Source: Pseudomonas cavernicola (GTDB lineage Bacteria; Pseudomonadota; Gammaproteobacteria; Pseudomonadales; Pseudomonadaceae). From it: DNA of 64,000 nucleotides. The DNA lies in NCBI RefSeq assembly GCF_003596405.1, contig NZ_QYUR01000003.1, positions 248,001-312,000 on the forward strand, in the 5' to 3' direction. Shown piece after piece: positions 41,766-46,692 of the stretch (positions within the stretch are counted from its first letter, which is position 1; each line of letters starts with the position of its first letter). Position numbers and translations under genes: made by a program. Under the pieces are notes generated by a model, which saw only the letters and a list, made by a program, of their open reading frames with translations, ran no database searches and had not been told where the DNA came from.

Positions 41766-41801
41766 GTTATAAACCTTTGCCATCCAGCACCGGCGCGCCC
41801 C

Positions 41802-42101
41802 ATGAAAGTCATTTATAAAATCACGTACCCAAATGGCAAAGTTTACGTCGGTAAAGATCTGACCGGAACGCTAAATTATTTTGGCAGCGCCGACAGCAAG
41901 CTAATTGAGCGTGACTTTACCGCTGAGCAAATGCGTGACTTTACAGTTCGCAAGCAAATCCTCTGGGAGTCAGAAACGGCAGCAGACAAGGAAGTAAACC
42001 TAAAAGAGGTCGAGCTCATCAAAGAGCTCCAATCAAACAATCCAAGCATCGGTTATAACCAGTGGCCAAAATTCAAGGCCGTCGCGCAGGCAGGCTTATA
42101 A
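41802..42101 (+). CDS. Cassette 1: GIY-YIG domain protein
   Basis: A protein of 99 residues from an integron cassette. It begins [20 protein letters not shown], a clear GIY-YIG signature (Y-K-I and YVG about ten residues apart), followed by [12 protein letters not shown] and a basic/acidic helical region. It is only slightly longer than one GIY-YIG module and has no other domain. GIY-YIG cassette proteins are found in environmental integrons; the role is unknown, with nuclease activity possible. The stop codon TAA lies inside the cassette's own attC, so coding capacity fills the cassette. Confidence 0.8.
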
Positions 42102-42182
42102 CTATGCGCTCAACCCCGTTCGCCTCGCTCACTGGACTCGCAAAAGCTACGCTTTGCTCGCCGGTTAGCACAAACGTTATGC
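42096..42182 (+). repeat. attC site 1
   Basis: R'' is TTATAAC (42096-42102) and R' is GTTATGC (42176-42182), total 87 bp. R'' is the exact complement of GTTATAA at 41766-41772, the start of cassette 1, as expected for one cassette inserted by IntI. The inner arms CGTTCGCCTCGCTC are like those of the later sites. Confidence 0.85.
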
Positions 42183-42218
42183 ACATTGCGTATTAGTCAG
42201 AACAGCTGAGAATTTTAG

Positions 42219-42734
42219 ATGCTACGAGGATGGATCTACGTAATAACAAATCCGGCCATGCCTGCACTGGTGAAAATTGGGTATTCGACCAAAGATCCAT
42301 CCTTTAGAGCCAAAGAATTAAATAATACAGGATCACCACATCCATACTCTGTAGCTTATGATGCCCTTTTACCCTCGCCAAGAGATATGGAACAAAGAGT
42401 TCATAAACTATTAATCGATAAAAGAGAAGGTAAAGAATGGTTTCGAATCACAGTAGCAGAAGCCATCTCAACAATCAGAACCACTGCAGGCGAACACATA
42501 TTACTTGAAAGGGTTAATCATTCTGAACACGGGGAGCCTTTACCGCACTCAGAAACGTCAAATTCTATAAATTCATGCCAATTTCCAGGATGCACCTTGG
42601 ATGCAGAACGTGCTTATAAAGAAATCTACTATTGCATTTGGCACTTCAGGGAAAAAACGAATCCACGTAACGTCGCTGCAATTCGCCTGCTGCGTGAAGA
42701 GCAACAAAAAACGAGCACTAAACCCGAGAAATGA
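42219..42734 (+). CDS. Cassette 2: T5orf172/MUG113-type GIY-YIG protein
   Basis: A protein of 171 residues. RGWIYVITNPAMPALVKIGY and RAKELNNTGSPHPYSVAYDA form the T5orf172/MUG113 variant of the GIY-YIG fold (IYVI...KIGYS). A glutamate-bearing helix follows (DMEQRVHKLLIDKREG). The C-terminal part has a Cys/His cluster (CQFPGCTLDAERAYKEIYYC) that could bind zinc. It is the second successive cassette with a GIY-YIG-type domain. Its function is unknown; base composition is AT-rich compared with the chromosome. Confidence 0.75.
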   Translation: MLRGWIYVITNPAMPALVKIGYSTKDPSFRAKELNNTGSPHPYSVAYDALLPSPRDMEQRVHKLLIDKREGKEWFRITVAEAISTIRTTAGEHILLERVNHSEHGEPLPHSETSNSINSCQFPGCTLDAERAYKEIYYCIWHFREKTNPRNVAAIRLLREEQQKTSTKPEK

Positions 42735-42801
42735 GCATAACAAGGCGTTCACTTCGTTCGCTGGGACGGCGTTCCGCCGCCCCTTAGCTTAATCGTTATG
42801 C
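42735..42801 (+). repeat. attC site 2
   Basis: R'' GCATAAC (42735-42741) and R' GTTATGC (42795-42801), 67 bp. The central stem is GGGACGGCGTTCCGCCGCCC. R'' complements the GTTATGC that begins cassette 2. Confidence 0.9.
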
Positions 42802-42816
42802 AATGAAGGAGGAAAA

Positions 42817-43158
42817 ATGTTCGACCTCTCGAAAATTCAAGATATCGAAGTTAAGTATGAGTACAAAAAACTTGGTTTAACGAGCTACTACTCTGAAATC
42901 AATGACAAAAATAGCCGCACTATTGCACCGAACAAAGAAACAATACGACTTACAATTCAAGACGATAACCTGTCTGATGACAACGGAATTTACCAAGTAA
43001 TAATAAAAAACAAAGGCGACCAGTACGAAATAAAAGGCGACTACTTTGTAAGCCCAGAGATATGGTACGAGGCATCGGCAATTATTAATGAGGACCATGT
43101 GTTAATTATTTCTGAAGATGCAGACGAAAAAATGACCATCATATGCCACATCGCATAA
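42817..43158 (+). CDS. Cassette 3: hypothetical protein
   Basis: A protein of 113 residues with AGGAGG ahead of its ATG. It is predicted to be beta-rich and acidic (DIEVKYEYKKLGLTSYYSEI; ETIRLTIQDDNLSDDNGIYQ; HVLIISEDADEKMTIICHIA). I recognise no family and no catalytic motif. The stop codon is part of the attC R'' core, so the cassette is compact. It lacks an export signal. Confidence 0.65.
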   Translation: MFDLSKIQDIEVKYEYKKLGLTSYYSEINDKNSRTIAPNKETIRLTIQDDNLSDDNGIYQVIIKNKGDQYEIKGDYFVSPEIWYEASAIINEDHVLIISEDADEKMTIICHIA

Positions 43159-43229
43159 CAATGCGCTCAAATCGTTCGCTTCGCTCACTGGGACCGGCTA
43201 AAGCCGGCCCCTTAGCTTAATCGTTAGGC
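43153..43229 (+). repeat. attC site 3
   Basis: R'' GCATAAC (43153-43159) and R' GTTAGGC (43223-43229), 77 bp. It contains CGTTCGCTTCGCTCACTGGG and the apical stem CCGGCTAAAGCCGG. R'' complements the start of cassette 3. Confidence 0.9.
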
Positions 43230-45363: not shown

Positions 45364-45369
45364 GTCAGC

Positions 45370-45446
45370 ACCTAACAAACGGTTCAAATCGTTCGCTTCG
45401 CTCTCTGGGACGGGCTAAAGCCCGCCCCTTAACCTAAACGTTAGAT
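45370..45446 (+). repeat. attC site 6
   Basis: R'' ACCTAAC (45370-45376) and R' GTTAGAT (45440-45446), 77 bp, apical stem CGGGCTAAAGCCCG. R'' complements GTTAGGT at the start of cassette 6. Confidence 0.9.
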
Positions 45447-45478
45447 GTCGAAGAAAATCGAATTACCGGAGAAAAATT

Positions 45479-46108
45479 ATGAATTGTTATAGCTGCAGAG
45501 CAGAGCTAATTGACGGGGCTAAATTCTGCATATCATGTGGAACCAATCTTGAGAGCAAACCTGTATGCTCAACTTGCAAATCAGAGTTAAATCCAGGGGC
45601 AATATTTTGCGGTACATGTGGCAACGCAACAAAAACCAATAGAACCAGCGATTTTTACGAAGAATCCCTAGCCATAGTTAGAACAATTATTTACAAGCTA
45701 TTTCCAAAAATGCAAGATTGCCCGCCAGTGCAACGGCCTACCTACTGGAATATGATGGCTGCTGGTTTGGCCGCATGCATCGTTACCTACCTCTTAATAG
45801 CGATAGCCCTTTTCGAAATCACAGCATCAAAAAATATTGCAAGCGCCATAGGGAACATTGCTGGATCATATGTTTTTCTAAAAATATGGGGGCACTTTTA
45901 TAAAGGCCGGCTTATCGATGCCGGGGTTTATAGAAATAAAAAATACATAAACACCAGTATCGCGATCGCAGTGGTATTTATTTTTTCTGCATTTGTGAGC
46001 CCTCTGGTCTCATCAATTGCATCACTAGCTGGAACCATTATTTGCATAGTTGTAGGCTGCCTAAAATCAAAAAATCAAACTGATCTATCAGCACCTAAAG
46101 CCATATAA
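45479..46108 (+). CDS. Cassette 7: double zinc-ribbon membrane protein
   Basis: A protein of 209 residues. Two zinc ribbons are at the N-terminus: CYSCRAELIDGAKFCISCG and CSTCKSELNPGAIFCGTCG, each with two CxxC. Two to four transmembrane helices follow (MMAAGLAACIVTYLLIAIAL; YINTSIAIAVVFIFSAFVSP; LAGTIICIVVGC). Zinc-ribbon plus membrane proteins are widespread and poorly understood. The gene starts at ATG 45479, 33 bp after the attC core. No homologue can be named from sequence alone. Confidence 0.7.
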   Translation: MNCYSCRAELIDGAKFCISCGTNLESKPVCSTCKSELNPGAIFCGTCGNATKTNRTSDFYEESLAIVRTIIYKLFPKMQDCPPVQRPTYWNMMAAGLAACIVTYLLIAIALFEITASKNIASAIGNIAGSYVFLKIWGHFYKGRLIDAGVYRNKKYINTSIAIAVVFIFSAFVSPLVSSIASLAGTIICIVVGCLKSKNQTDLSAPKAI

Positions 46109-46160
46109 CCTTGCTCACTTTGGGTCGGGCTAAAGCCCGCCCCTTAACTTAATTGCTTCA
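46103..46160 (+). repeat. attC site 7, degenerate
   Basis: The right half is intact (CGGGCTAAAGCCCGCCCCTTAA) but the left arm is shortened to ATATAACCTTGCTCACTTTG and the R' core is missing (ATTGCTTCAG in place of GTTANNN). It is probably no longer a substrate. Confidence 0.7.
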
Positions 46161-46192
46161 GAAATAACTCATATACCAGTATAGGAATCCCC

Positions 46193-46681
46193 ATGTCCAA
46201 GTCAAAAATCGCTGAGGCTATTATTCAATTTCTTATTAAGACATTTTGGCCATGGTTTCTTGAAAATATATGGCCCCTGATTTTGAAGCACATAATATCT
46301 GTCGTTACAGATTCCCTGGATAGCTTAAGTAATCGTATAAATCGATTCTTCGCGGATCGCATGAAAAAACGTAGTCAAAATGCTGCAGAGCGGGCGCATG
46401 AAGCAACAGAAGCCGCAGCGGCAGCAACCACCGACAGCGAGCGGGAAAAACACGAAGCAGTTGCCAAGGTTTGGCGTGAGGTCGCAGAGCAGTTTCGTTC
46501 GGAAAATGAGGCTCTGCATGCTCAAGTTATAGAGCTAATCGCACGCACACAGCAGTCAGTGCAAGAAGACTTACGCCACACAAAACCTGCCATTGATGAC
46601 CTAGCTGGTACTCCGTCGTTAATCATTGGCCAGTCAAAAGCAAAATTGCCAGCCTTGCCGTACGAGCAGGGTACGCTCTAA
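46193..46681 (+). CDS. Cassette 8: coiled-coil protein with amphipathic N-terminus
   Basis: A protein of 162 residues. The first 45 are strongly amphipathic or membrane-associated (IIQFLIKTFWPWFLENIWPL, then LKHIISVVTDSLDSL), and the following 90 are a charged, alanine-rich coiled coil (NAAERAHEATEAAAAATTDS; VAEQFRSENEALHAQVIELI). No catalytic motif is present. It is flanked by degenerate attC-like sequences, so it may be a former cassette that has been fixed. Function unknown. Confidence 0.6.
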   Translation: MSKSKIAEAIIQFLIKTFWPWFLENIWPLILKHIISVVTDSLDSLSNRINRFFADRMKKRSQNAAERAHEATEAAAAATTDSEREKHEAVAKVWREVAEQFRSENEALHAQVIELIARTQQSVQEDLRHTKPAIDDLAGTPSLIIGQSKAKLPALPYEQGTL

Positions 46682-46692
46682 CAAACGGTATA
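46676..46692 (+). repeat. attC site 8, left fragment only
   Basis: CTCTAACAAACGGT resembles the left end of sites 4 and 6, but no right half follows, so the array appears to have been truncated here. Confidence 0.5.

Follow-up and report, generated by a model that had tools for sequence, protein, structure and literature searches.

Cassette array and attI site

The window analysed here (the whole stretch of 64,000 nt from Pseudomonas cavernicola; GCF_003596405.1, NZ_QYUR01000003.1, positions 248,001–312,000, forward strand) contains a 10.8 kb island bounded by a 15-bp direct repeat (D7; 36302–47150), and within this island lies a row of integron gene cassettes preceded by an attI site (Table 1). 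The original prediction, made from the sequence alone, had described six attC sites and two fragments separating eight AT-rich genes, with neither an integron integrase (IntI) nor an attI site. A covariance model of attC (R1), trained on 15 attC sites from three other genomes and on no window sequence, recovered the six sites in one orientation (E 2.2e-7 to 3.9e-25). The first predicted fragment was found to be a weak attC match (21.6 bits) whose R' lacks GTT, while the remaining five listed matches in the window had E values of at least 0.08. All eight open reading frames (ORFs) of the array share the same orientation and have a GC content of 37–47% compared to 56.4% for the window, as had been predicted.

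Cassette identity was confirmed by the core bases, since R'' is complementary to the start of its own cassette at 7/7 bases in cassettes 1, 2, 3, 4 and 6 (five of six cassettes), exactly those named in the prediction; in cassette 5 the two match at 4/7 bases only. Among 30 cross-pairs two matched, both between cassettes 2 and 3, which begin with an identical 7-mer. Cassette 1 is 83% identical over 389 nt, from R' into attC, to a cassette of another species (G014; in our labels G-numbers denote genomes and L-numbers loci, G000 being the genome of the window and C its contigs), and this counterpart sits in an array beside a complete intI. Among 198 other genomes, the DUF5677 cassette gene had one relative (60%), and no attC was found in the short stretch fetched around it; here and below, the genome samples (199 genomes, and 398 for one later search) were drawn from the larger genus. 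Single-sequence DNA folds of the attC sites yielded the inner hairpin and often not the whole canonical stem, so that structural support rests on the covariance model. These imperfect folds are what could be said for a set of chance repeats that form no integron array, an explanation rendered extremely improbable by the independently built attC and attI models, the R'' complementarity and the shared cassette. We conclude that the cassette array is genuine.

The predicted lack of an attI site did not hold. A sequence-only attI model (R2), trained on eight intI-bearing loci and no window sequence, matched directly before cassette 1, and the window attI is 81–84% identical to attI beside complete intI in three loci (L043, L045, L046). 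In complete integrons the intI start coincides with the left edge of the attI-similar stretch, and it is at that start codon that the similarity of the window begins; nothing recognisable as intI was found to the left of the window attI. This position is taken by an integrase-less left flank, for which a model (R3) run over the 199 genomes found six copies in this genome and, outside it, a single match, weak and partial, in one genome. The six copies are 75–96% identical and end at the intI start codon, and two of them (window and L039) lie in different tRNA-associated islands. We rejected the idea that the flank is a recognisable decayed intI, since, although a few residues fitted by eye, flank-to-intI alignments did not score clearly above shuffles for the window, L039, L041, L114a, L114b, L097 and L119 (z −1.46 to 1.77); z values of about 3 were obtained for L040 and L118. 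For a Pc promoter there were two weak promoter-like matches, close to the level in shuffles (0.5 ± 0.9). A search for attI on plasmids gave no match. The array is an attI-anchored, integrase-less integron.

Table 1 Features of the island and its cassette array (window coordinates)
Feature	Position	Strand	Evidence or content
Left att core (15-bp repeat, 3' end of tRNA-Ser)	36302..36316		Direct repeat D7
Tyrosine integrase, 442 aa	36462..37790	+	PF22022, PF13356, PF00589
Island ORF without family match	37839..38498	+	Family scans
AlpA-type regulator	38613..38852	+	PF05930
Serine resolvase	39019..39600	+	PF00239
Helix-turn-helix (HTH) DNA-binding protein, island-family marker	39587..40225	+	PF13384, phrog_867
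Protein with conserved HxxHxHG and YxxKE	40244..41272	+	Alignment of 8 relatives
Integrase-less left flank	41489..41632	+	95.8% to L039; common to other attI copies of this genome
attI, crossover between G41766 and TTA	41633..41769	+	R2 E 8.7e-23; directly before cassette 1
Cassette 1	41766..42175	+	ORF 41802–42101, no Pfam match
attC site 1	42096..42182	+	R1 E 2.2e-7
Cassette 2	42176..42794	+	ORF 42219–42734, T5orf172 domain, PADLOC candidate PDC-S57
attC site 2	42735..42801	+	R1 E 5e-11
Cassette 3	42795..43222	+	ORF 42817–43158
attC site 3	43153..43229	+	R1 E 1.4e-23
Cassette 4	43223..44196	+	ORF 43245–44111, DUF5677 (PF18928)
attC site 4	44126..44203	+	R1 E 7.2e-22
Cassette 5	44197..44921	+	ORF 44234–44851, lipoprotein-like by sequence
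attC site 5	44853..44928	+	R1 E 2.1e-20
Cassette 6	44922..45439	+	ORF 44950–45363
attC site 6	45370..45446	+	R1 E 3.9e-25
Cassette 7, probably fused with eighth gene	45440..46688	+	ORFs 45479–46108 (double zinc ribbon) and 46193–46681
attC site 7, degenerate	46095..46161	+	R1 E 0.0024; R' without GTT
attC site 8, first part, split by insertion sequence (IS)	46676..46688	+	R'' CTCTAAC, then IS left end
Left-end remnant of IS1111-attC-type (IS110 family) element	46689..46871	+	89–91% to full-copy left ends in L058
Island right end common to L039	46872..46955	+	86% over 279 bp from 46678
Right att core	47136..47150		Direct repeat D7

End of the array

At the second predicted fragment (site 8), half an attC runs into an IS left end; an element of the IS1111-attC type has split the site here, which is no decayed remnant. 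Full copies of such an element were read inside attC sites in another locus (L058), and in plasmid records that match the IS left-end stretch together with attC sites, an IS110-like transposase of the ISPpu25 family is annotated; IS1111-attC is the group name that we take to apply to the element ending the array. Its transposase gene and right end are gone from the window, with no ORF of at least 60 aa in 46682–47270. A 150-bp repeat 3' of the array had been considered as a long attC type, since in L058 it resembled a series of sites, and was ruled out once the full insertion sequences had been read there. The start of cassette 7 agrees at 6/7 bases with the R'' of either site 7 or site 8, and this cassette is probably fused with the eighth gene. 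As a separate observation, attC sites of the window type adjoin resistance cassettes on plasmids, with 84–87% identity among the matches listed.

attI, attC and integron integrase in the genome and the genus

The predicted absence of IntI extended to the whole genome, where no protein exceeded the family cut-off (30/30 candidates scored), the contig of the window included. The two best recombinase matches below the cut-off were XerD and XerC, the weaker tyrosine-recombinase matches not having been inspected individually. This same genome holds at least 12 attI sites at E 1e-12 or better, the threshold used for the tally, and at least 14 at E 0.001, the limit of the search itself; because at most 21 candidates were scored per genome, attI counts are lower bounds, as are attC counts, for which 150 of 2179 candidates were scored in the genome-wide search. 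None of the 198 other genomes had more than two attI at E 1e-12 among the matches listed, and up to five were seen at 0.001, while genomes with any attI among the matches listed numbered 22/199 (E 1e-12) or 43/199 (E 0.001). IntI above the cut-off was present in 23/199 genomes.

At E 0.01 or better, attC matches in the genome number at least 38. Correctly oriented attC sites lie 3' of eight of the 12 attI copies (window, L039, L040, L041, L042, L097 and two in L114); around the remaining copies (L118, L119, L120, L121), the sequence fetched contained no attC at E 0.05. Beside the attI and attC row of L042, an intI fragment of about 56 codons with a stop (9818–9985; G000:C6, about 598,800–599,000) is probably what is left of the former integron integrase of the lineage. 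In a tree of 140-bp attI sequences, built from eight of the 12 copies in this genome and 18 further sequences, the former were placed in three groups with modest support.

Two further observations concern individual copies. L120 (G000:C8 near 550,000) and L121 (G000:C2 near 2,112,400) are near-identical duplicated blocks with an attI-like site and without attC (98.8% identity over 9.6 kb, 97.4% over 1.5 kb). In L097 (13970–15358; G000:C8), about 1.3 kb of sequence interrupts the attI and includes an ORF identified by eye as an IS3-like transposase.

The array by itself is of a known kind; the unusual part is the combination of about a dozen attI sites with no recognised intI and with docks borne on islands. 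In the open-licence literature searched, we found no account of an intI-less genome with many attI sites.

Host island and related islands

The array is the cargo of an island at a former tRNA-Ser site, as the prediction of a tRNA-type island had held. In a relative (G012), a complete tRNA-Ser(tga) occupies the orthologous position upstream of gacA, and the window island combines a tyrosine integrase, an AlpA regulator and att repeats at a tRNA, as in P4-type integrative islands. General scans of the island proteins matched no P4 replication or helper-phage families, no dedicated P4 search having been made. The tRNA scan of the window detected no tRNA body, and of the tRNA-Ser the 3' end alone is left at the right border, where we noted a tRNA-Ser 3'-end remnant (47136–47190). 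Since the genes to the right (aldehyde dehydrogenases) differ from those read in G012, the right border has been rearranged. The protein at 40244–41272 had no Pfam, NCBIfam or PHROG match, and searches against solved structures returned ribosomal and polymerase matches only (E 0.28 or worse); from its motif we presume that it is possibly an HUH-type Rep. A repeat in 46872–46955 may be an integrase arm site, and a similar repeat occurs near both ends of a related island (L090). Away from the island, an ORF at 62160–63497 (−) resembles a group II intron reverse transcriptase by eye.

Relatives of the HTH protein were found at nine places in 7/398 genomes and in seven phage records, one of which, from a P. 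aeruginosa prophage, matched at 70%; 32% relatives occurred in viral contigs, and there were none on plasmids. Ten islands were compared, namely the nine HTH-marked places and the P. aeruginosa prophage record. Both attI and attC were present in two of the ten (window and L039), both in this genome. The other eight (seven from other genomes and one phage record cut at its end) had no attI at E 0.01 with R2 and no attC at E 0.05; the sole attC match up to E 1 had E 0.069 and lay outside the L090 island. These eight relatives rule out that the array is typical of the island family.

The backbone of the L090 island, on a Gammaproteobacteria contig from a metagenome-assembled genome (JAHJYA010000098.1), is 79% identical to that of the window over 2363 bp, and this island has a DarT/DarG pair in the cargo slot (11524–13262), and in L092 a GmrSD-type gene lies 3' of the backbone. 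The second attI-anchored array (L039, 3291–11260; G000:C2, about 939,300–947,300) is in an island beside a tRNA-Arg(ccg). This island shares the HTH and HxxHxHG genes with that of the window and has a recombinase-like ORF of 656 aa, unlike the window's, with a weak XerD match. Its first cassette encodes an endonuclease/exonuclease/phosphatase-family protein. The backbones of the two islands are 67% identical over 887 bp compared to 95.7% for the attI unit.

Comparison of attI copies and origin of the array

IntI cuts between G and TT. When the eight array-bearing attI copies were compared, similarity ended between G and TTA in 28/28 pairs, identity falling from 69–98.5% before GTTA to 40–58% after it, a level read without a separate random control. 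Up to this point the window and L039 are 95.7% identical over 281 bp, and two copies that lie 6.2 kb apart (L114a and L114b) have attI sites 98.5% identical followed by unrelated first cassettes. Given where IntI cuts, the simplest account of this loss of similarity is that cassettes were inserted into pre-existing attI copies, and the integrase-less flank shared by six copies points to loading in trans. Our preferred reading, which we consider fairly likely, is a genome with several attI docks into which an integrase supplied in trans loaded cassettes, two of these docks being carried on islands.

In the proposed history, whose order of events we infer, as we do trans loading, mobility and expression, an attI unit of about 270 bp, left flank included, would have spread by copying to six or more places, with two copies coming to lie in different tRNA-associated islands; afterwards the attI copies would have received different cassettes. 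Each attI would have served as a dock at which an integron integrase inserted cassettes one by one between G and TTA. This enzyme would have acted in trans, and its source may have been a second integron of the lineage, for instance the one near C6:598,900, where a fragment of intI is left. In the window, the array would occupy the variable cargo slot of an island at a tRNA-Ser gene, and the IS1111-attC-type element would have split the last attC later. As no IntI is present, the array is probably frozen in this genome. The original prediction had added that the island gives the array a second route of transfer; the anatomy (integrase and att repeats) fits, and the array could still travel as island cargo, a movement that we infer.

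An alternative explanation is that the array is an ordinary relic: the island would once have carried a complete integron, filled in cis by its own intI, which was deleted later. The likeness of L039 would then reflect common descent of the cargo, and the differences between cassettes would predate the loss. Loss of intI is indeed common: of 32 attI loci from other genomes, some of them near contig ends or weak attI matches, a tblastn search with one IntI query found six with the whole protein (one, L099, with an in-frame TAG), two with a split protein, nine with an N-terminal remnant and 15 with none, and L042 of this genome retains its intI fragment. However, six copies have the same integrase-less flank (75–96%) up to the intI start codon, each with its own first cassette, which would require either repeated independent loss or loading after the loss. 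We regard a relic of this kind as rather unlikely.

Homologous recombination among attI, attC and IS repeats could also have reshuffled arrays without IntI. The genome offers the substrate in its dozen or so attI copies, its attC matches (at least 38) and a number of IS left ends, and an 11-kb duplication shows that copies arise, but homologous exchange has no reason to end between G and TTA in 28/28 pairs, and we judge this explanation distinctly improbable.

Several points weigh against docks loaded in trans. No active IntI remains, so that trans loading is not observable. The right ends of the window and L039 islands are also alike (86% over 279 bp), so that the frame is partly of common descent and the cassettes could have changed otherwise. 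An old intI, decayed past recognition, could be concealed in the left flank. With eight other islands free of attI and attC, an association of array and island is known so far from this genome alone.

Relation to known systems and significance

In IntegronFinder, a cluster of attC sites lacking an integron integrase (CALIN) has at least two attC and no integrase, and attI sites outside class 1 are stated to be poorly described and undetected by version 2.0 (PMC9024848). The label given in the original prediction agrees with this definition, as the window has six good attC sites and no integrase nearby. It falls short in that the missed attI makes the array an integrase-less integron tied to about a dozen attI loci: relative to a complete integron, attI precedes the first cassette and intI is missing. 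CALINs have been proposed to be degraded integrons (PMC9024848), they can be mobilised in trans by IntI (PMC12444791), and CALINs, intI loss and mobilisation in trans are all already published (PMC9024848, PMC12444791, PMC3108266).

A close likeness is the CALIN of the Shewanella prophage M16-3, an integrase-less array with its own attI on a phage-type mobile element (PMC9892861). That prophage also has a complete integron, whereas in the genome of the window no intI was recognised, some dozen attI are present and the array is carried by a small tRNA-Ser island. Xanthomonas CALINs away from the intI locus likewise form cassette clusters at several chromosomal places, in their case at conserved positions as described there, compared to attI copies and tRNA islands here (PMC12444791). 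P4-like satellites with variable defence slots are known in E. coli (PMC9122126), and the islands studied here resemble them, as outlined in that account, in the tyrosine integrase, AlpA, the variable cargo slot and the DarT/DarG pair of the relative; the window island differs in having no identified P4 replication or capsid-control genes and an integron array as cargo. Delta-attI-type gene cassettes also place attI away from its intI, recombined by integrase, but in the cases that source presents, parts of attI end single class 1 cassettes, whereas in this genome attI sites precede whole arrays (PMC12901181).

With an attI model, what had been a single CALIN becomes one dock among several, in a genome where no integron integrase was recognised, and two of these docks are seen to ride on islands. 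Whether integron docks spread without an integrase and are filled in trans thereby becomes a testable question. The wider issue is how cassettes flow between chromosomal and mobile integrons. A more tentative reading, possible rather than probable, is that attI can itself be mobile and act as a dock free of integrase: a unit of about 270 bp would spread through the genome and to tRNA islands and, as a satellite of the host integron, would be filled by the IntI of the host. If so, islands would carry cassettes between hosts without carrying an integrase.

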